A stretch of 32,519 bases of DNA from Betaproteobacteria bacterium (GTDB taxonomy: Bacteria; Pseudomonadota; Gammaproteobacteria; Burkholderiales; Burkholderiaceae_C). The notes beneath the pieces are model-generated. The model ran no database searches. It was given only the letters and a program-made list of their open reading frames with translations, and had not been told where the DNA came from. How positions within the stretch are numbered: the first letter of the stretch is position 1; every line of letters begins with the position of its first letter. The position numbers were made by a program, and so were the translations under genes. The stretch lies in NCBI GenBank assembly GCA_009919175.1, contig RGCL01000030.1:1-32519 (forward strand), read 5' to 3'. This document shows, one piece after another, positions 7,135 through 18,107 of this stretch.

Positions 7135-9225
7135 GTGAGCACTCTTCATACAATTCAGAACATGGGACGTGGCAAGTTGTCGGATCTTTGGCTGGATCGT
7201 GAGCTCAGTCTCTTGGCCTTCAACGCCAGGGTGTTGACCCTTTCCGAACGCGGCGACATTCCCTTACTGGAACGATTGCGTTATTTGACCATCGTGTCCT
7301 CCAACCTCGATGAATTCTTCGAAGTCAGAGCAGCCCTGGTGGAGCCTACCAATGCCCATGGTCAGCATGTGCCCAGCTACGCCAAAGCAGCACACGAGTT
7401 GGTGGAGCGCCAATACAAAATCCTGAATCAGCATCTGATGCCCGAGCTGGCTGGCCAAGGCGTTGATTTGGTGTCCCATGGCGACCGCACTGCTGAACAA
7501 AAAGCCTGGGTCAAACAACTGTTTGAGCGAGAGATCAAGCCGCTGCTGTTGCCGGTTGTGCTCGACCCCTCGCATCCTTTTCCCCAGGTTGCCAACAAGT
7601 CGCTCAACTTCATTGTCAAACTCAGTGGGGAAGACGCGTTTGGTCGTTCCAATCGGATCGGCATCGTCAAAGTCACGCGAAACCTGCAGCGGTATTACCG
7701 CTTCCCGGCACGGTTGAGCCCCAGCGGGCGGATGCAGTTTGTATCCATCTCCAGCATCATCCGCTCGCATCTGAGAGATCTGTTCGCCGGGCGTGAAGTC
7801 AGTGACTTCTCCCAATTCAGGGTGACCCGCCATTCCGACCTGTCGGTGGACGAGGATGATGTCAAGAATCTGAGGACCGCACTGCAACAAGGCTTGGTCC
7901 ATCGCAACTACGGCCAAGCCATGCGCCTGGAAGTCTCTTATGGATGCACCGAGGAACTGGCCAGCCTGCTCATGGCGCAGTTCAACCTCGCTGAGCATGC
8001 CCTCTACCGTGTGCATGGCCCGGTCAACCTGGTTCGGTTGAGCCGGCTGATTGAACTGGTCGATCAGCCCAGATGGCTTTACCCCAGCCATGCCGCGGCC
8101 TACCCACCGGCGCTGAAAAACGCAGAGTCTTTGTTTACCCAGATTCGCAAAGGGGATGTCCTCATTCACCAGCCCTTTGAGCAGTTTGATGCCCTCATCG
8201 ACTTGCTCAAGGAGGCCGTGAACGATCCCCATGTCTTGGCGATCAAGCAAACCATTTACCGCACCGGATCAGACTCTCGCCTCATGGAGCTGCTGCAAGA
8301 AGCAGTGACACGCGGCAAGGAGGTCACCGTCGTGGTGGAGCTCAAGGCGCGCTTTGACGAAGAGGCCAACATCAATTGGTCGCAACGGCTGGAGCAAGTG
8401 GGAGCTCAGGTGGTGTATGGCGTGGTGGGCCTCAAGACGCATGCGAAATTGATGCTGATCTCGCGGCGGGAAGGCGCCAACATCCGGCGCTATGCCCACT
8501 TGTCAACGGGCAACTACAACCCGCGTACAGCCAGGCTTTACACCGATTTGTCCATGCTCACCGTGGACCCCAAGATCACCGCCGACATCGAAGCCGTGTT
8601 CAATTTATTGGCCAACCAGACCAAGTTGCCCCGGTTGAACAAATTGATTGCGGCCCCCTTTCACCTACAACGCCAACTCATTGCACACATTCAGTCCACA
8701 GCCCAAGCTGCACGATCCGGCCTTGATGCGCGCATGGTGCTGAAGATGAATGCCCTCACCGACGAAAAACTCATGTCGGCGCTGGTACAAGCCAGCCAGG
8801 ACGGTGTGAAGATTGACCTCCTTGTGCGTGGTGCTTGCATGTTGCCAGCGCAGGTCAAAGGCTTCACCGACAACGTCAGGGTCAGATCGATTGTGGGACG
8901 CTTTCTTGAACACTCCCGCGTGTTTTATTTCCGTGCCAATGGGGTGGAGACGCTCTGGCTATCGAGTGCGGACTGGATGAACCGCAACATGTTGAGGCGC
9001 ATTGAAATCGCTTGGCCTGTTGAAGATCCTCAACTGCGCCAAAGGATCATCGATGAGTGCTTGGTCGCCTACCTCCACGACACTGCCGACGCCTGGGACA
9101 TGCAAAAAGATGGCCATTACCTCAGCGTCAGGCACTTGCACAGAAAGCCCGCCAAAGGCTCAAGCCAAGCCCATCGGCACAGTGCCCAGTTGGCCTTGAT
9201 GGCCAGGCATCCATTCCTGGCGTGA
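7135..9225 (+). CDS. ppk: Polyphosphate kinase 1
   Basis: This 696-residue cytoplasmic enzyme reversibly polymerises the gamma-phosphate of ATP into polyphosphate. Length and order match PPK1: the N-terminal helical domain begins with LWLDRELSLLAFNARVL, the middle domain follows, and two phospholipase-D-like domains carry the histidines. The autophosphorylated histidine is in KTHAKLMLI (His about 436) and the second essential histidine in EHSRVFYF (His about 593), almost the same numbering as His435 and His592 of E. coli. The GTG at 7135 is used because GGGA lies about seven bases upstream; ATG at 7162 is in frame but has no ribosome-binding site. sixA follows 12 bases after the stop, and ppx is convergent beyond it, so synthesis and breakdown of polyphosphate are encoded side by side. 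Confidence 0.97.
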   Translation: MSTLHTIQNMGRGKLSDLWLDRELSLLAFNARVLTLSERGDIPLLERLRYLTIVSSNLDEFFEVRAALVEPTNAHGQHVPSYAKAAHELVERQYKILNQHLMPELAGQGVDLVSHGDRTAEQKAWVKQLFEREIKPLLLPVVLDPSHPFPQVANKSLNFIVKLSGEDAFGRSNRIGIVKVTRNLQRYYRFPARLSPSGRMQFVSISSIIRSHLRDLFAGREVSDFSQFRVTRHSDLSVDEDDVKNLRTALQQGLVHRNYGQAMRLEVSYGCTEELASLLMAQFNLAEHALYRVHGPVNLVRLSRLIELVDQPRWLYPSHAAAYPPALKNAESLFTQIRKGDVLIHQPFEQFDALIDLLKEAVNDPHVLAIKQTIYRTGSDSRLMELLQEAVTRGKEVTVVVELKARFDEEANINWSQRLEQVGAQVVYGVVGLKTHAKLMLISRREGANIRRYAHLSTGNYNPRTARLYTDLSMLTVDPKITADIEAVFNLLANQTKLPRLNKLIAAPFHLQRQLIAHIQSTAQAARSGLDARMVLKMNALTDEKLMSALVQASQDGVKIDLLVRGACMLPAQVKGFTDNVRVRSIVGRFLEHSRVFYFRANGVETLWLSSADWMNRNMLRRIEIAWPVEDPQLRQRIIDECLVAYLHDTADAWDMQKDGHYLSVRHLHRKPAKGSSQAHRHSAQLALMARHPFLA

Positions 9226-9237
9226 GGCGGTGATCCC

Positions 9238-9726
9238 ATGGATTTGATCCTCTGGCGTCATGCTGAAGCCACCTTGGCCGAGGACGGTGCAGATGATGCA
9301 TCCAGAGCCTTGACGCCCAAGGGTGAACGACAAGCCGCCCGCATTGCCCAATGGCTGGATCGTCAACTCAGCGACGGCACCCGCATCCTGTGCAGCCCCG
9401 CAAGGCGCACCGAACAAACCGCCCTGGCCTTGCAGCGCAAGTTCAAGTTTCGCGAGGAACTGGGGCCGCAGTCCAATGCAGAGGCCGTGCTGGACCTGGT
9501 GAAGTGGCACGCTGACATGACCGTCCCGCCCAAGCAGTCGATCTTGTTGGTGGGTCACCAGCCCTGGATGGGCGATGTCATCATGAGCCTCACCAAACTG
9601 CCCTCGTCTGCCTGCGCGGTGCGCAAAGCATCTGTTTGGTGGCTCAGGGCGAGAGAGAGAAACCAGCAACTGCAAATCCTCATTCATGCCGTCATCAATC
9701 CGGAGATTGTGGGCGGCCTTCAGTAG
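9238..9726 (+). CDS. sixA: SixA-type phosphohistidine phosphatase
   Basis: This 162-residue protein belongs to the histidine phosphatase superfamily. It begins with LILWRHAEA, the RHG-type motif with the catalytic histidine, followed by RALTPKGERQA, SPARRTEQTA and, in the second half, LLVGHQPWMGD, which carries the second histidine. Length and motif spacing fit SixA, which removes phosphate from histidines of phosphorelay or nitrogen-PTS proteins. It starts 12 bases after ppk with GAGG upstream, so the two are probably one transcript. The natural substrate here cannot be told from sequence. It converges with ppx, with 16 bases between stop codons. Confidence 0.9.
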   Translation: MDLILWRHAEATLAEDGADDASRALTPKGERQAARIAQWLDRQLSDGTRILCSPARRTEQTALALQRKFKFREELGPQSNAEAVLDLVKWHADMTVPPKQSILLVGHQPWMGDVIMSLTKLPSSACAVRKASVWWLRARERNQQLQILIHAVINPEIVGGLQ

Positions 9727-9742
9727 CGCAAGGACCGCAGCC

Positions 9743-11239
9743 TCAGAGCATCAGCAGTTCGAATGAGCATGAGGTCTTATCCCAGGCCTGTTGCTCCAGT
9801 TGCAGTAAATGGGTGGACTGGGGAAATTGCTCTGCCCAACCTTGAGGCAGCGTCAATGTGAAGCTCATGCGGTGGGCATGCTGGGTGAGCATGAGCGCAT
9901 CAACTTGCGGCAGGGTGCGAGCATGACAAACAATGATGGCCAAACGCAGCGAGAGCAGCAATCTGCAAAACCGCTCATCTGACCAGTCGGCATCGAGCTT
10001 GCGCAATTTGCCTTTTTGCCCAAGGATGAGCATGCCCAGCCTGTGCAATTCATCATCGCTGAATCCAAACACCTCGGCATGATCAATGATGTAAGCACCG
10101 TGTTTGTGATGGTCTGCATGGGAAATGGCGCTTCCAATTTCATGCAATTGCGCGGCCCAAGCCAATTTACGCTTGGCATCGAGGTGCTCATGCTGCGGCG
10201 CGTCTTTCACCAATTGAGCAAAGAAAAACTGAGCCACCTGATTCACGCGCTGAGCCTGCTCCTGGTCCACCATGAAACGATGAAGCAATCGCCTGACGGA
10301 TACCTCCCGCTGATCCTTGGCTTCAACATGGCGATCCAGCATGTCAAACAACAGACCCTGGCGCAAGGCACCTTGAGCGACCACGATGGTGTCAATGCCC
10401 AGCACATCCATGACGGCACGAAGCACACTGATGCCGCCGCCAATGACCGCCCTGCGGTCTTCCTTGAGGCCATCGATCTGGATGCGATCCACATGCCCCG
10501 CACGCAGCAAGCACTTGGTCAGCCAATTGAGGCCTTCGCGTGTGATTTGCGAAGCAGGCCAACCACTCGCATTGAGCACATCTGCCACCGCTCCCACAGT
10601 GCCAGATGCACCGTATACGATGTCCCAATCCGACCTCGGAAATTGACTCCATGCGTCATCCAGGATGGCCTGAGCCGCAACTTCGGCCTTGTGAAACGCT
10701 TGCGCAGAGAGCTCGCCAGACTTGAAGTGTTTGATCGACGACGACACGCTTCCCACACGGTATGAAGCGACTTGGTTGGGGGTGTAGCCAACGCCCGCAA
10801 TGACCTCTGTGGAGCGACCGCCAATGTCAATCACGAGCCTGCGCTCGACCGATTGGGGCAGCAAATGAGAAACCCCCTGATAAATCAAGCGCCCCTCTTC
10901 CATGCCCGAGATCACCTCAATGGGAAAGCCCAGGATTTGACTGCCCACCGACAAAAATTCATCACGGTTGCGGGCTTCACGCAAGGTTTGCGTGGCCACC
11001 GCCCTCACCTGGCTGGGAGGAATGCCTTGGAGCCGTTCAGAGAACCTGGCCAGACAACTCCAACCCTTCTCCATGGACGTTTGGGAGAGGATGCGGTCCT
11101 CGTCCAAGCCACTGCCCAATCGAACGGTTTCCTTGAGGTACTCAACGCGCTGGATCTGATCGTGATCCAAACGTCCGATCTCTAAACGAAAGCTATTGGA
11201 GCCCAGATCAATGGCGGCCAGCAGTTGTGAAGCAGTCAT
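9743..11239 (-). CDS. ppx: Exopolyphosphatase (Ppx/GppA family)
   Basis: This 498-residue protein starts with LLAAIDLGSNSFRLEI, the phosphate-1 motif of the Ppx/GppA branch of the ASKHA fold, followed by VATQTLREARN, GMEEGRLIYQG, VIDIGGRSTEV and YGASGTVGA. The C-terminal half (ELHEIGSAISHADHHKHG) has the HD-like domain seen in long Ppx enzymes. It hydrolyses terminal phosphate from polyphosphate, or possibly pppGpp as in GppA. Two in-frame ATGs are possible, 11257 and 11239; neither has a clear ribosome-binding site. I favour 11239 because homology begins immediately after it. A series of TGTC repeats at 11-bp spacing lies over and just upstream of the start, and a tiny ORF in the same frame ends at 11276. 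The gene converges with ppk-sixA. Confidence 0.93.
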   Translation of the reverse strand: MTASQLLAAIDLGSNSFRLEIGRLDHDQIQRVEYLKETVRLGSGLDEDRILSQTSMEKGWSCLARFSERLQGIPPSQVRAVATQTLREARNRDEFLSVGSQILGFPIEVISGMEEGRLIYQGVSHLLPQSVERRLVIDIGGRSTEVIAGVGYTPNQVASYRVGSVSSSIKHFKSGELSAQAFHKAEVAAQAILDDAWSQFPRSDWDIVYGASGTVGAVADVLNASGWPASQITREGLNWLTKCLLRAGHVDRIQIDGLKEDRRAVIGGGISVLRAVMDVLGIDTIVVAQGALRQGLLFDMLDRHVEAKDQREVSVRRLLHRFMVDQEQAQRVNQVAQFFFAQLVKDAPQHEHLDAKRKLAWAAQLHEIGSAISHADHHKHGAYIIDHAEVFGFSDDELHRLGMLILGQKGKLRKLDADWSDERFCRLLLSLRLAIIVCHARTLPQVDALMLTQHAHRMSFTLTLPQGWAEQFPQSTHLLQLEQQAWDKTSCSFELLML

Positions 11240-11278
11240 GTGACAAGCATAAGACATGCAGATGACAACTCTGTGTCA
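11235..11278 (-). promoter_or_regulatory. Tetrad of 11-bp PhoB-box-like repeats at the ppx start
   Basis: Four successive 11-bp units on the minus strand read TGACACAGAGT (11278-11268), TGTCATCTGCA (11267-11257), TGTCTTATGCT (11256-11246) and TGTCACATGAC (11245-11235). TGTC recurs three times at exactly 11-bp steps. If the first two units are the functional box, TATGCT at 11251-11246 falls ten bases after TGTCAT as a -10, and the transcript would begin at about the ATG at 11239, giving a leaderless ppx mRNA. The periodicity is observed; PhoB control and leaderless translation are inference. Confidence 0.38.
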
Positions 11279-11350
11279 GTCCGCACGGGCTTTGACCTGA
11301 GCCAATCGGCCTGGGTCGGTGAGGTCATCTGGAACGCCATTGGTGGCCAT
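11276..11350 (-). CDS. Possible 24-residue small protein or leader peptide upstream of ppx
   Basis: An ATG at 11350 is preceded by an excellent ribosome-binding site, AGGAG with four bases of spacing (AGGAGATCC then ATG). The frame runs 24 codons to TGA at 11278-11276, giving a short acidic soluble peptide beginning MATNGVPDDL. It begins 14 bases after the stop of the binding-protein/channel fusion and is in the same frame as ppx, from which it is separated by one stop codon. It may be a real small protein, a leader peptide coupled to ppx, or the remnant of a longer N-terminus. Only the ribosome-binding site and position support it. Confidence 0.4.
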   Translation of the reverse strand: MATNGVPDDLTDPGRLAQVKARAD

Positions 11351-11364
11351 GGATCTCCTATGGC

Positions 11365-13089
11365 TCAATGACCGGCACCATGACTTGCCTCTCTACTGCA
11401 AATGAATTGCGGGTACATGATGTTGAATTTGTCGATCAGCAGCCTGAAGCTGATGATGAACAAGGTGGCACCAATGATGGTCATGTACACCGGAAGAGGG
11501 GTGTATTCATAGGCATTGGCCACCACCAAGCCCAACACGATCAGAAAGCCGCCAAGGACGGCAGCCTCTTCATACAGCACGCCCTTGAAAGTGTGAGGCT
11601 CTTGGTTGATCACGATGTCACGCAGCGCACCGCCGCCCGCGCAGGTGAGCGCCGCCAGGGCTGGCACCCAATACCAAGGCATATCGGCCAGGATGGAGTA
11701 CACCGCCCCGGCCACAGCCAAGCATGAGAACCCAATGATGTCCGAATACTTTTTGACTTTCTTGAATTTGTCTTTCTGATCGGCCTTGGGGAAAAACGCG
11801 ATGATGATGGAGGCGAATAAGACCACCAGACAGATGCCCACGGGATAAGTTGGATCCTTGACGTAATAAAAGGGCAGCCGCTCGCCACCGATGATCAGGT
11901 CTCTGATGGTGCCCCCGCCAATGCCCGAGAGGAAGGCCAGAATCAATCGCCCCCACAAATCGTAGTTGCGATGGATGGCCTCCAACACACCCGAGAGCGC
12001 ATAGATGAACACCCCAAAGTAGACAAATACCTTGAACAGCGGCATGAGTGAAATGTTCTTGAGGTAATGCTTGGTGGCCACGGTGAAGGTGGGCGCAGTG
12101 CCATCTTGCTTTTGAAGCTCGTTCCAGATGCGATGAGTCCAAATCTTGTTGGGCGAGGTCTCTTCATTGAGGCCTTGCTGGATGTAACGGTCCGATTCCA
12201 GGTCCAGGGCGTTGAGATCCAGCAAACCAAATTTTTTCTGCTCAGACGGAATCAAGGTGAGCATGGTCTCCAGCCCCTTGAGTTGATGGTCTTTGTCAAA
12301 AGACTTTGAAACCGACCGCACCGATTCCAGTGACAGGGTTGGTGCTGCCCGCGTCTCGCGCCAGCCTTCTCGCAAAGCCCTCAAAAAACCCACCAATTTG
12401 GCACGAAAGGCAGGGTCATCCAGGCGCCTGGAGTCCACATAAACACCGTCGAGCAAAACGGGAATGTCAAACTTGCTGGGTTCGATCACCAGCAGGTCGC
12501 TGTAGGGCACCCCCATTTCAATGACATTGAGGTATTCGTCAAACAGCATGGAGGTGGCACATGCCACTCGTTTGTTCACCAGGTCTGAGCCATCATGCTT
12601 TTGAATCACGAACTCGACCGCATCCGGTGGCAGCGACAGCTTTTTGAGCAACTCCTCAACAAACGGTTTTTCGTCATAGCCCCACACACCGAATTTCTTC
12701 CCGGCCATGTCTTTGGGGCCGTAAACGCCGGTGCTTCTTCTGCACACCACCACATAGCCTGAGCCACTGATGATCTGTGCGATGTTGGTGATGTGATAGC
12801 CATCTGGTTTGGATGCCAGCCATGCTCCGCCCAAACCGACGATGGCGACGTCCGCTTTGCCATCCCGCAAGACCTCGCCTGCATTCATGCCCTGGCCGCC
12901 TTCAATGAGCTTGACCGATAGGCCTTCTTTCTTGAAGTGATTGCGCATCTGGGCGACATAAAACCCTGTGAACTGGCTCTGATGGATCCAAGGCAATTGC
13001 ACCTTGAGTTCAGCCAACTCTTCTTCGGCAGCTTGTGCAGCCCCAGAAAGCATGCACAACGCCAATAGCGTGGACCAAAAATGCTTCAC
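11365..13089 (-). CDS. Periplasmic NMT1/THI5-like substrate-binding domain fused to UPF0126/TRIC-type membrane domain
   Basis: This is a single 574-residue frame with two unrelated modules. Residues 1-21 form a Sec signal peptide (core FWSTLLALCMLSGAAQA). Residues about 24-300 resemble NMT1/THI5/SsuA-type ABC substrate-binding proteins: LPWIHQSQFTGFYVAQ, FKKEGLSVKLIEGG, GKADVAIVG, MAGKKFGVWG. Residues about 350-560 are hydrophobic and carry two copies of the UPF0126/TRIC repeat, each with its glycine motif: GGGTIRD (about 391-397) and GGGALRD followed by LYEEAAVLGG (about 485 onward). TRIC-type channels have an outside N-terminus, so a periplasmic binding domain ahead of the first helix is topologically sensible. 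GTG 13089 is preferred because it starts directly at the signal peptide and the region upstream is AT-rich; an in-frame ATG at 13203 would add 38 unlikely residues. No ABC permease or ATPase gene is adjacent. Ligand unknown. Confidence 0.85.
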   Translation of the reverse strand: MKHFWSTLLALCMLSGAAQAAEEELAELKVQLPWIHQSQFTGFYVAQMRNHFKKEGLSVKLIEGGQGMNAGEVLRDGKADVAIVGLGGAWLASKPDGYHITNIAQIISGSGYVVVCRRSTGVYGPKDMAGKKFGVWGYDEKPFVEELLKKLSLPPDAVEFVIQKHDGSDLVNKRVACATSMLFDEYLNVIEMGVPYSDLLVIEPSKFDIPVLLDGVYVDSRRLDDPAFRAKLVGFLRALREGWRETRAAPTLSLESVRSVSKSFDKDHQLKGLETMLTLIPSEQKKFGLLDLNALDLESDRYIQQGLNEETSPNKIWTHRIWNELQKQDGTAPTFTVATKHYLKNISLMPLFKVFVYFGVFIYALSGVLEAIHRNYDLWGRLILAFLSGIGGGTIRDLIIGGERLPFYYVKDPTYPVGICLVVLFASIIIAFFPKADQKDKFKKVKKYSDIIGFSCLAVAGAVYSILADMPWYWVPALAALTCAGGGALRDIVINQEPHTFKGVLYEEAAVLGGFLIVLGLVVANAYEYTPLPVYMTIIGATLFIISFRLLIDKFNIMYPQFICSREASHGAGH

Positions 13090-13404
13090 TTCGTTTGTCC
13101 AGTTTTTTGATGATTTGAGTTTAATTTTTTGCAATGCAACCTTCTGAAAAGGACTATTGCCAAACGCTCTGGGCAAATCCTTTGACAGCGGCTTGAAGGA
13201 CATTTCGGCGAAGATCAGTCGCGCAGACTGATGCTGCAGTCACAGTTGGGTGGCCACCTCAAACAGCGATAAAAAATCTTTTTGCCACGGGCCGTCCTGG
13301 CCCACTGCGCCAGATGGTCATCGGCTACATCCTTGCTTGCTTGCGAGGGCATACTATCCCATCACCAAGAAACGCTTGCTTGGATGCAGTCAAGGAGTAG
13401 AACG
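13090..13404. other. Divergent intergenic region with a perfect inverted repeat
   Basis: These 315 bases separate the fusion gene from the isomerase gene. The part nearest the fusion gene (about 13090-13150) is AT-rich, as expected of a promoter. A perfect 7-bp inverted repeat with 5-base centre, ATCAGTCgcgcaGACTGAT, lies at 13214-13232 and could be an operator for either gene. GGGCC and GGCCC around 13288-13302 form a short weaker hairpin. No credible gene is seen here. Confidence 0.45.
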
Positions 13405-14004
13405 ATGAGCAACAAGACCCTGGAATTCCATTTCGACTTTGTCAGCCCGGCCACCTACCTGGCGTACACCCAAGTGGATCGCATCGCGAATGAAGCGGGT
13501 GCGACGATGGTATGGCATCCCATGCTGCTCGGCGGCGTGTTCAAAGCCACGGGCAATGCCAGCCCGGTGAGCGTGCCTGCCAAAGGGCGCTGGATGCAGG
13601 CCGACCTCGCGCGGTGGGCCAAGCGCTGGGGCGCGCCCTTTGTCTTGAATCCCCATTTCCCCATCCAGACCTTGCCCCTGATGCGCGGCGCATGCGGGTT
13701 GCTCATGCACCAACCCAATGACTTCAGGCGCTATGTGGATGCCGCATTCAAGGCCATCTGGGTCGATCAGCGCAATTTGAACGATGCCGCCGAGATTGAA
13801 TCCGTGCTCACCGAGGCCGGCTTTGATCCACAGGCGTTCATGGCGCTGGCGGGAGACCCCGCCGTCAAAGCCGATTTGGTGGCGCGCACCGAGGCCTCGG
13901 TGGCCAGAGGTGCATTTGGTGCGCCCACATTCTTTGTTGGCTCGAAGATGTTTTTCGGCCAAGACAGGCTGGACTTTGTGCAAGAGGCACTGGCTAAGGG
14001 GTGA
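13405..14004 (+). CDS. 2-hydroxychromene-2-carboxylate isomerase-like protein (DsbA/GST-kappa fold)
   Basis: This 199-residue cytoplasmic protein matches the HCCA isomerase (NahD) branch of the DsbA/GST-kappa superfamily. The N-terminal FHFDFVSPATYLAY has the active-site serine in place of the DsbA cysteine, and the C-terminal GAFGAPTFFVGSKMFFGQDRLD is the conserved cis-proline and helix region. In aromatic degraders the enzyme uses glutathione to isomerise a naphthalene catabolite. No naphthalene pathway is present here, so the physiological substrate is unknown; orphan copies are common in Burkholderiales (family knowledge). The start is fixed by AAGGAG at 13392-13397, seven bases before ATG 13405. 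A longer in-frame extension back to 13282 lacks support. Confidence 0.9.
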   Translation: MSNKTLEFHFDFVSPATYLAYTQVDRIANEAGATMVWHPMLLGGVFKATGNASPVSVPAKGRWMQADLARWAKRWGAPFVLNPHFPIQTLPLMRGACGLLMHQPNDFRRYVDAAFKAIWVDQRNLNDAAEIESVLTEAGFDPQAFMALAGDPAVKADLVARTEASVARGAFGAPTFFVGSKMFFGQDRLDFVQEALAKG

Positions 14005-14070: not shown

Positions 14071-14163
14071 TGGCGGAAACGGAGGGATTCGAACCCTCGA
14101 TGGGGCTCAACACCCCATACTCCCTTAGCAGGGGAGCACCTTCGGCCTCTCGGTCACGTTTCC
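14071..14163 (-). tRNA. tRNA-Ser (anticodon GCT)
   Basis: The minus strand folds as a class II tRNA of 93 nt including an encoded CCA (complement of 14071-14073). The acceptor arm is GGAAACG with CGTTTCC, discriminator G. The anticodon loop is CTGCTAA with anticodon GCT at 14129-14127, flanked by a CTCCC/GGGAG stem. A long variable arm (TGGGG with CCCCA) and the T-loop GGTTCGAATCC identify it as serine. It lies ten bases downstream of the lysC stop on the same strand and is probably co-transcribed with it. Confidence 0.97.
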
Positions 14164-15467: not shown

Positions 15468-16493
15468 CTATTTGCGCCCCGTGGAAAGGGGCAGATTGTA
15501 GCCAACCAACACCTCGGCCTGTCTGACAACCCGTCCCTCGCCCACCTTGAGTTCGATGTGGTGACCTTGCGTGGTGCAGGCCTGCACTTGCGACATGAGT
15601 TCATCGAGCTGCGCTGTGTTGACGCGTAGCCCCAGGCCTTTGAGCCACACGCGCAGCGCATTGGCCAAGCGAGCTGGGCTCAAGGCTTGCAAATCCTTGA
15701 TGCGGGGTGGCAAGCCACACGCCTTCAAATCCTGCTCGCCCACTTCACGCAGCAGGCCTTGCGCCTGGGCGGCATGACGGGCGCTGCGTGCGAGGGTTTG
15801 CCGATGCGCGGGAAAGTGGGCATCGAGCACAGGCGCGAGCGCATGACGAATGCGATTGCGGGTGTGGGCCAGTTGGTCGTTGCTGGGATCCTCCACCCAG
15901 GCTTGACCGGTGCTGCGCAACCAGCTGCGAATGTCCTGAGCATGGACGTGCAACCAGGGGCGATCGAAGCGCACGCCGTGACGCTCAAACCGCTCGGGCA
16001 TGGCCGCCAGGCCAGGCAACCCTGCGCCGCGCAACAAGGCCAGCAACACGGTTTCCACTTGGTCATCGGCATGGTGAGCCACAACGACGCTGCCCTGCTG
16101 CACACCCGCTTGCCCAGCCAATCGCGCCAGGGCCTCGTAGCGCGCCAGCCGTGCCGCTTGTTCCAGGCTATCGCCCTTGTGCAGGTCGATGTGAACGCGG
16201 TCACACCACAAGGGCACGCCCAGTTGCTGGCACAAGTGCTTGCAGTGCGCTTCAAACTCGGCGGCAGCGGCTTGCAAGCCATGGTTGATGTGAAGGGCAT
16301 GCACTTGCCCAGGCCAGCGCGCATGACATGCCAGCAGCATGGCGGTGGAGTCGGCGCCTCCGCTGAACGCCACGGCCAAGGGTAGCGCAGGCGTGTAGGC
16401 CGTCCATGAAGCGCCAGCCCATGGCGGTGATGGGGGCGCTGACGTTGATGCCCCCGCGGCCTCAGGCGGCTTTGGTGTCGTTGAATCGCCCAT
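15468..16493 (-). CDS. tilS: tRNA(Ile)-lysidine synthetase
   Basis: This 341-residue enzyme attaches lysine to C34 of the AUA-reading tRNA-Ile, changing its amino-acid and codon identity; it is essential in most bacteria. The PP-loop ATPase motif SGGADS is at residues 44-49, followed by HINHGL and [12 protein letters not shown], and the [18 protein letters not shown] stretch typical of TilS. The ATG at 16493 starts 32 bases inside the 3' end of accA, consistent with translational coupling. The first 35 or so residues are Pro/Ala/Ser-rich and poorly conserved in appearance. The C-terminal domain is shorter than in E. coli TilS (about 430 aa). Confidence 0.93.
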
Positions 16494-17433
16494 AGGCCTG
16501 CAAGCGCTCGTAGCGGCGTTCAAGCAAAGCCTTGACACTCAAGTCATCCACCTGCCGCAAGGCTTCGCCCAGGGCTCGCTTGAGTTGGGCTCCCATTTGT
16601 TTGAGGTCGCGGTGTGCGCCCCCCACTGGCTCGTTGATGATTTTGTCGACCAGCCCCAGGGCTTTGAGTCGGTGCGCGGTGATGCCCAAGGCCTCGGCGG
16701 CATCGGATGCCCGCTCGGCGGTCTTCCACAAAATGGAGGCGCAGCCTTCGGGGCTGATGACCGAGAACACGGCGTATTGCAGCATCAGAACCTGATCGGC
16801 CACGCTGATCGCCAGTGCCCCACCCGAGCCGCCTTCACCAATGACGGTGGAGATGATGGGCACTTCGAGTTGAGCCATTTCGTAGATGTTGCGGCCAATG
16901 GCTTCACTCTGGCCGCGCTCTTCGGCATCGATGCCGGGGTAGGCGCCAGGGGTGTCCACAAAGGTGAACACGGGGAGCTTGAATTTTTCGGCGGTCTTCA
17001 TGAGGCGCAAGGCCTTGCGATAGCCCTCGGGGCGGGTCATGCCAAAGTTCCTGAGGGTGCGCTCTTTGGTGTCGCGCCCTTTTTGATGACCAATCACCAT
17101 ACAAGCTGTGCCGTTGAGCCTGGCCATGCCGCCAATGATGCTCAAGTCGTCAGAGAAATGGCGGTCGCCATGCATCTCCACAAAATCGGTGAAGAGCTCG
17201 TTGATGTAATCCAGGGTGTAGGGCCGCTCAGGGTGGCGCGCGATCTTGGTGATTTGCCAAGGCGTGAGGTTGGCGTAGATGTCCTTGGTGAGCTTGACGC
17301 TCTTTTTGGTGAGCTGGTCAATTTCGTTGGAGATGTCCACCGCCGACTCGCCCTGCACATAGCGCAGCTCCTCGATCTTGTCTTCGAGATCGGCAATGGG
17401 TTGCTCAAAATCCAGAAACACTTTCTTGGCCAC
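16462..17433 (-). CDS. accA: Acetyl-CoA carboxylase carboxyltransferase subunit alpha
   Basis: This 323-residue protein is the alpha subunit of the carboxyltransferase that makes malonyl-CoA for fatty-acid synthesis, working with AccD and biotinylated AccB. The N-terminus [19 protein letters not shown] is the standard AccA start, and [38 protein letters not shown] and [11 protein letters not shown] are core crotonase-fold motifs. The start is GTG at 17433 with GGAG six bases upstream; the frame extends to 17505 but those residues are not AccA-like. It lies 26 bases downstream of the glycosylase gene and overlaps tilS. Confidence 0.97.
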
Positions 17434-17459
17434 AGGGATCTCCGTTGAGTGAGAGGCAA

Positions 17460-18107
17460 TCAGTAGGTGACAGGCAATGGATCCAGCGAACGCCACATGT
17501 ACCACGTGGCCACACTGCGATAGGGATCCCAGGCCTGGGCCACTTCGCGCGCGTCGCTGCGGCTCACCGCTTCACCTGAGAAGTAATTTTGGCTGATTCC
17601 CTTGATGAGACCCAGATCGTCCAAAGGCAGCACGTTGGGGCGCATCAAGTGAAAGATCAGGAACATCTCGGCGGTCCATCGGCCAATGCCGCGAATGGCC
17701 ACGAGTTCGGCAATCACCGCCTCGTCGTCCATGCTGCCCCATTGGTTGACGTGCACCAGGCGATCCGAAAAGTGCATGGCCAGGTCCACCAGGTATTCCA
17801 CCTTGCGCGCCGAGAGGCCTGCGCCCCGCATGTCGTCGATGCGCAGCTTGAGCACACTGGCTGGCGTGATTTTTTTGGGCAGCAAGGCAATGAAGCGATC
17901 CCACACCGATTGCGCGGCCTTGACGGAGATTTGTTGCCCAACGATGCTGCGCGCCAGCGTGACAAAGGCGTCACCCCGCGAAGCCAGGCAGGCATCGCCA
18001 AACTGGGGGATGAGGCGTCGCATGACGCGATCCTTTTTCATCAGGTACTTGCAAGCCTCCTCCCAGTAGGGTGGCACTTGCTCGATGATCTGGGGCTTAG
18101 TGGGCAT
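17460..18107 (-). CDS. DNA-3-methyladenine glycosylase, AlkA/HhH-GPD type
   Basis: This 215-residue enzyme removes alkylated bases from DNA. The core reads [15 protein letters not shown], then a helix-hairpin-helix ([18 protein letters not shown]) and the catalytic aspartate segment LPLDDLGL, all typical of the HhH-GPD superfamily and the AlkA-like branch. It lacks the N-terminal domain of E. coli AlkA and resembles the short bacterial form. No Fe-S cysteine cluster is present, unlike Nth/MutY. Its ATG shares one base with the cysS stop codon (TGATG), indicating translational coupling. Confidence 0.92.

Follow-up and report, generated by a model that had tools for sequence, protein, structure and literature searches.

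A binding domain and a TRIC/UPF0126 domain encoded in one reading frame

The window, by which we mean the whole stretch of 32,519 nucleotides that was analysed, carries on its minus strand a single uninterrupted frame (11365–13203) that encodes 612 amino acids when read from its first ATG at 13203 in the ORF list. An earlier note on this DNA had described a fused frame at 11365–13089, of which the uninterrupted fusion stands and the start does not: the ORF reaches the ATG at 13203, and the GTG at 13089 chosen in that note is preceded only by a weak GGA. A TTG at 13134 has AGAAGG upstream at good spacing and gives a protein of 589 amino acids, near the 587 amino acids of the homologue described below. 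For both reasons this TTG, rather than the ATG at 13203 or the GTG at 13089, is the likely start of the gene, which we call the substrate-binding protein (SBP)-TRIC fusion gene. Residue numbers of the window protein count from the ATG at 13203. The features of the locus are as follows.

11365..13134, minus strand: SBP-TRIC fusion gene, 589 amino acids with the inferred TTG start (the ORF to the ATG at 13203 encodes 612 amino acids)
13030..13134, minus strand: putative signal peptide with cleavage after AQA, judged by eye from the sequence
12106..13026, minus strand: periplasmic binding domain, residues 60–366 (Pfam, stand-alone relatives, fold matches to 3ix1, 4nmy and Thi5)
12340–12978, minus strand: NMT1 core of the binding domain (Pfam)
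12043..12105, minus strand: short linker, residues 367–387, gap-free in the homologue
11410..12042, minus strand: TRIC/UPF0126 domain with seven predicted transmembrane (TM) helices, residues 388–598 (Pfam, PDB sequence matches, model, Foldseek)
11899–11919, minus strand: first glycine motif, GGGTIRD, in TM2 (sequence, alignment)
11617–11637, minus strand: second glycine motif, GGGALRD, in TM5 (sequence, alignment)
14071..14163, minus strand: tRNA-Ser (gct) near the fusion gene, possibly marking an accessory site (context only)

Both modules score far over their Pfam gathering cut-offs in this one frame, as the earlier note had proposed: PF09084 (NMT1/THI5-like) covers residues 76–288 (E = 5.3e-26, 92.3 bits against a cut-off of 20.5), and PF03458 (UPF0126/TRIC, now named Glycine transporter) matches in two stretches (E = 1.8e-25, 89 bits against 23.5). 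The signal peptide and the two glycine repeats listed in that note are likewise present in the frame. PDB sequence matches at E ≤ 0.001 divide in the same manner, with TRIC channels matching residues 387–558 (the best being 5h36, 5wuc and 5wuf), and THI5/THI13 and one ABC binding protein matching residues 67–196. The six families that the Pfam scan of the fusion protein returned at E ≤ 1 include neither a TAXI or GltS model nor a model of a K+-channel-like P-loop pore of the ionotropic glutamate receptor (iGluR) type. A promoter and terminator scan of 11100–13450 gave no promoter-like site and five terminator-like sites, an uninformative number given the 2.7 ± 1.9 found in shuffled sequences.

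Predicted topology and fold

In prokaryotic TRICs, the helix H2,3 between TM2 and TM3 lies outside and H5,6 lies inside (PMC5477506). The N-terminus of a TRIC domain is thereby placed outside, and an exported binding domain ahead of TM1 fits this arrangement. The loop charges of the seven predicted TM helices agree: the TM3–TM4 loop is strongly positive (7 K+R in 17 residues), as expected for a loop on the inside. The window fusion is thus predicted to be N-out, in agreement with the orientation assumed in the earlier note.

A structure prediction of the full chain was also suggested there. The AlphaFold2 model obtained shows seven long helices together with an alpha/beta domain; it is of low confidence (mean pLDDT 61, pTM 0.43), and its relative placement of the two domains is disregarded here. 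The model rests on four sequences because three scans of viral contigs, run to deepen the alignment, added only two stand-alone TRICs. In Foldseek searches, the top ranks for the binding domain were ThiY (3ix1), the thiamin-bound 4nmy and Thi5, with a target TM-score of at most 0.50, and the membrane domain matched the TRIC structures 5h36 and 5wuf at 0.71–0.74, the values for 5h36 being 0.73–0.74. Given the low scores of the top-ranked binding-protein matches, the model can be taken to support the fold class of both domains only.

A second fusion in another family

When the TRIC part was compared with 399 genomes of the order, one more fusion was found, a protein of 587 amino acids in a genome (G853) from another family of the same order. 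A scan of genome contigs returned the same gene again as CANHBC010000090.1, from a metagenome-assembled genome (MAG) designated Betaproteobacteria bacterium RE-16jun15-17. The two fusion proteins are 39% identical over 548 amino acids with 6 gap positions. The earlier note had also considered that homologues might always be two separate genes; the only other case found is one gene too.

Identity is 40% in the binding domain (residues 60–345), 42% in the junction (346–388) and 39% in the membrane domain (389–598). The two fusions align without a gap at the junction, and in the membrane domain the homologue carries a single insertion of 2 residues. Since the three regions are about equally conserved, the alignment indicates that neither half of the fusion is simply decaying. 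Neither copy contains a stop or a frameshift despite the 39% identity.

The history of the two halves was approached with trees. Placed among 44 stand-alone TRICs, the TRIC domains of the two fusions come out as sisters (100/99), with the second fusion on a long branch and a warning from the program of long-branch joins. Among 41 stand-alone SBPs, the binding domains of both fusions have very long branches and form no clade in the best tree; they come together in 10% of 200 bootstrap trees, and may still have had a single origin. In pairwise identity, each fusion has the other as its closest row in the two trees (38% and 37%).

Rarity of the fusion

How often the fusion occurs was assessed in genome samples that overlap and are in part drawn from larger groups. 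The window's genome was the only one with the fusion in the samples of the genus (84 genomes, 60 with a match at 1e-5), the family (299 genomes, 41 with a match at E ≤ 1e-30) and the phylum (398 genomes, 10 with a match at 1e-40), and it alone was found at 1e-30 among 369 genomes of the class. With the TRIC part as query, 78 of the 399 genomes in the order sample had a match at 1e-15, and the fusion was present in the window's genome and in G853. When the completeness limit was set to 95, G853 alone was found at 1e-28 among 399 genomes of the order. Within the family of G853, the fusion occurs in one of 11 genomes. The survey of both domains in one protein that the earlier note had called for thus yields two cases in the Burkholderiales samples.

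Frames of at least 500 amino acids around TRICs in the order sample numbered three among the 81 matches listed, namely those of the window's genome, G853 and G1073. The last of these (L067) was rejected as a fusion: its ORF from the first start is 292 amino acids long, and further upstream the sequence is rich in arginine and does not look like an SBP by eye. Frames of less than 500 amino acids were treated as too short for a fusion, and two of them (L084 and L088) were inspected.

Plasmid records matched the query in 65 cases, none over 80% of its length. Two scans of genome contigs with a few short patterns returned, respectively, no relative and only the known G853 homologue, and a scan of viral contigs with the fusion alignment returned no fusion. 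These contig scans are narrow, and further fusions are possible outside the samples; a third SBP-TRIC fusion was absent from the genome samples and from the plasmid, contig and viral scans described here.

Relatives of the binding domain

The binding domain is 30–37% identical to the 38 closer of its 41 stand-alone relatives. For 16 of the 41, wider neighbourhoods were searched, the queries being the genes of L127, which is itself among the 16 and is counted. An ATPase and both permeases lie near the stand-alone SBP in 15 of the 16 neighbourhoods. A RutR-like regulator accompanies it in 11, and in six there are genes for PreA, dihydropyrimidinase or a carbamoylase-like protein. NCBIfam models assign the L127 genes to PreA, dihydropyrimidinase and a carbamoylase-type amidase over cut-off, and its regulator matches RutR models below cut-off. 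Because ABC genes occur in 15 and pyrimidine genes in six of the 16, the binding domain of the fusion is kin to SBPs of ABC importers that often stand in pyrimidine catabolism clusters.

No ABC or pyrimidine-cluster genes were found beside either fusion with the L127 queries, in the window or in L092, the corresponding stretch of the second genome. At E ≤ 1e-8 the L127 ABC and pyrimidine-cluster proteins match only the SBP part of the window, which bears out the earlier remark that no ABC permease or ATPase gene is nearby. This situation is not unique to the fusions, because the sixteenth neighbourhood (L093, from the congener G732) gave only SBP matches and thus holds a stand-alone SBP without ABC genes in its stretch; the contig ends about 1.5 kb past the SBP. 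This stand-alone SBP, which is of the pyrimidine type (L043 1381–2418), is flanked by genes that, by eye, we take to be an aldehyde dehydrogenase gene and tsaD.

At the level of whole genomes, PreA and dihydropyrimidinase, the two enzymes searched for, score over cut-off in neither the window's genome nor G853 (0 of 2 each). G853 has a hydantoinase-like gene that reaches 331 bits against a cut-off of 393, and the best matches to the L127 permease in the two genomes are 28–32% identical; an importer partner encoded away from the fusion is conceivable. The window's genome also contains distant SBP relatives of the ordinary kind, near permease-like ABC matches, at G000:C188:15187-16390 and G000:C170:9264-11898.

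Both fusions have lost three residues that are nearly constant in the stand-alone SBPs, W123 (38 of 41), P125 (37 of 41) and Y242 (41 of 41); the window protein has G, G and P there. W72, Q75, Q77, D118 and E223 are kept in both. Judged from the alignment, the replaced and the kept residues probably line the ligand pocket. The fusions therefore resemble ABC-importer SBPs of pyrimidine clusters, of which ThiY (3ix1) and 4nmy are solved relatives, in identity and fold class, but differ from them in these three replacements and in having no cognate permease or ATPase nearby.

Conserved and altered residues of the membrane domain

In SaTRIC, a lock is formed by D99-R139-D140-Y155 and an ion site by N144 (PMC5477506). 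In our sequence alignment these positions correspond to D488-R528-D529-Y544 and N533 of the window protein, which therefore keeps all four lock residues (each found in 44 of 44 stand-alone TRICs), the cation-site Asn (41 of 44) and both glycine motifs. In the second fusion the lock positions read N, L, D and F, so that only the second D is kept, together with the Asn; GGA replaces its first GGG. Loss of three of the four lock residues argues, from sequence, against a standard TRIC gate in the second fusion.

Other positions set both fusions apart from the stand-alone TRICs. Where 42 of the 44 carry E or D in TM1, both fusions carry V; in TM2 they carry W at a site occupied by V or F in all 44, and R at another where 31 of the 44 have V. 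In sum, the window protein resembles the prokaryotic TRIC/UPF0126 proteins SaTRIC, CpTRIC and RsTRIC in having seven predicted helices, both glycine repeats and the residues of the lock and the cation site; unlike them, it has a signal peptide, a periplasmic binding domain of 300 residues and, in common with the second fusion, the V, W and R just described.

TRIC proteins are described as K+-permeable channels (PMC5477506). UPF0126 genes have also been linked to glycine use in 11 bacteria, according to a review rather than primary data (PMC12173739), and 'channel' is therefore not the sole reading of the membrane module.

The window's genome has an ordinary stand-alone TRIC/UPF0126 as well (G000:C69:26509-27120, L001), whose matched part shares 32–33% identity with the fused domain. 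Against the NCBIfam cut-off of 326 bits for the YadS-type equivalog NF007874 (PRK10578), the fusion scores 55.6 bits and this stand-alone copy 148 bits.

Genomic setting of the two fusion genes

The genes around the fusion in the window were recognised by eye and are presumably ppk, sixA, ppx, a DsbA-like gene, lysC, tilS and accA. All 13 congeners searched have ppx. The order ppk-sixA-ppx (window 7135–11257) recurs in three of nine congener stretches, and sixA adjoins ppx in two more. In the ppx flanks of nine congeners, the fusion and the dsbA-like, lysC, tilS, accA and alkA-like genes were not found at E ≤ 1e-5, and no tRNA was found. As the window genes beyond ppx are not found in the congener stretches, the fusion stands at a synteny break, and for this reason no empty site is defined.

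GC content is 0.53–0.54 for the two domains of the fusion against 0.60 for the window. The lowest-GC segment of the window (12001–13500, 0.522) spans only the binding-domain half of the gene, and most 1500-base segments in the left half of the window are at 0.54–0.58; with left-hand neighbours nearly as low, the dip is weak evidence here. In L092, where the fusion gene has a GC content of 0.555 against a contig mean of 0.644, the dip is sharper, extends over about 5.6 kb and begins at a tRNA-Ser. This tRNA gene (L092 6984–7073, tga) is 0.3 kb away from the fusion; in the window, the distance between the fusion and a tRNA-Ser with another anticodon (14071–14163, gct) is about 0.9 kb. The fusion may be a horizontally moved accessory gene.

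Genes resembling tilS and accA lie 2–4 kb from the fusion in both genomes (window 15468–17505; L092 1003–3589), on its upstream side in one genome and on its downstream side in the second. This could reflect a shared site history or coincidence.

Possible functions of the fusion

Combining these findings, we tentatively favour, at a likelihood that we put somewhat short of even, a protein that takes up its substrate in a binding-protein-dependent manner within a single polypeptide and without an ATPase, the membrane module being a tethered pore or carrier; in its logic, such a protein would compare with TAXI-GltS fusions and with iGluRs. The exported NMT1-type domain would catch a small solute in the periplasm, and the linker of about 20 residues would hold it at the outer mouth of its own seven-helix TRIC/UPF0126 unit, which presumably assembles as a trimer. 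Closure of the ligand-bound domain would then hand the solute to, or open, the pore of the same chain. The substrate would be altered from the pyrimidine class, with glycine, another small amino acid or a heterocycle as candidates, and transport would presumably run inward. A more specific version, in which three binding domains sit on the trimer as a self-contained SBP-operated TRIC pore and each domain gates or supplies the pore of the chain to which it belongs, we consider possible though doubtful.

The uptake reading is supported by the two domains in one frame, the full-length homologue with its even conservation along binding domain, junction and membrane domain, the sister placement (on long branches) of the fused TRIC domains, the missing ABC neighbours, the N-out topology, the link between UPF0126 and glycine, and a precedent. 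In TAXI-GltS, an N-terminal binding protein and a non-ABC membrane transporter likewise form one polypeptide (PMC12344293), so the general idea of joining a binding protein to a membrane module outside the ABC class is already known; the parts are different, with TAXI instead of NMT1 as the binding family and GltS instead of TRIC as the membrane module. The reading is weakened by its having two members only, by the lock loss and the GGA in the second fusion, by the lack of a fusion clade in the best SBP tree, by the review origin of the glycine link, and by the stand-alone SBP of L093, which has no ABC genes either in its stretch. The authors of the TAXI-GltS work suggest that coupling to an SBP goes with elevator carriers (PMC12344293), which also counts against uptake. 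TRIC proteins are not known to be carriers of this type.

A ligand-gated cation channel, in which the binding domain is a periplasmic sensor that opens the TRIC pore and the ligand itself stays untransported, is in our estimate unlikely, though it is the most serious competitor. Prokaryotic TRICs are described as trimers with a pore in each protomer, together with electrophysiology (PMC5477506), and the window protein retains the lock tetrad and N533. A fusion of a binding protein with a K+ channel is moreover considered as the origin of prokaryotic iGluRs such as GluR0, in which a periplasmic-binding-protein-type domain is likewise combined with a cation channel (PMC3483616). The iGluR channel, however, resembles a tetrameric K+ channel with a P-loop (PMC3483616), whereas the window fusion has a TRIC module, known members of which are trimeric, placed after the whole binding domain. 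Such gating also has to contend with the N, L and F at three of four lock positions in the second fusion, and with our inference that a domain ahead of TM1 has no known way to act on a pore within the protomer. We favour ATP-free uptake over the gated channel; uptake has the TAXI-GltS precedent, which includes fused forms, and the hint that UPF0126 proteins carry glycine.

It is improbable that the protein is a tethered scavenger or sensor without coupling, its TRIC part a mere anchor or independent channel and its binding domain acting alone or on another partner. SBPs do also stimulate transmembrane receptors (PMC9602780), and TRIC residues have drifted in the second fusion, but a full seven-helix TRIC held at 39% identity over 210 residues with one 2-residue insertion exceeds what an anchor needs. 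Still less credible is the reading that this is an accessory gene, moved recently and without a settled function, that is heading for decay: the gene is rare in the samples, and in both genomes its GC content lies under the contig mean and a tRNA-Ser is nearby, yet two copies that are only 39% identical are free of stops and frameshifts and evenly conserved along the chain, and the GC difference from the left-hand neighbours in the window is small. Although each assembly is split into many contigs (248 and about 260) and the second is a MAG, an assembly chimera of two genes or a chance fusion has next to no chance of being correct, because the full-length architecture and its gap-free junction are common to genomes of two different families.

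Significance for binding proteins and the TRIC/UPF0126 family

The earlier note knew of no characterisation of this architecture, and this agrees with the literature searched (titles and abstract openings, with broad topics covered in part), which contains no description of an SBP-TRIC fusion; nor do we know of one. The transport partners of binding proteins comprise ABC, TRAP and TTT systems, a list that TAXI-GltS newly extends (PMC12344293). A fusion to TRIC would add to these partners a pore of a different fold. The self-contained SBP-operated pore, if real, would to our knowledge be the first SBP-coupled TRIC, built from parts that differ from those of the glutamate receptors and of the TRAP, TTT and GltS carriers, and the TRIC/UPF0126 family would gain a defined extracellular ligand. 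The ligand of the fused domain could be measured on a soluble fragment and then on the membrane part, and the fusion would bear on the question of whether the UPF0126/TRIC proteins act as K+ channels or transport glycine.
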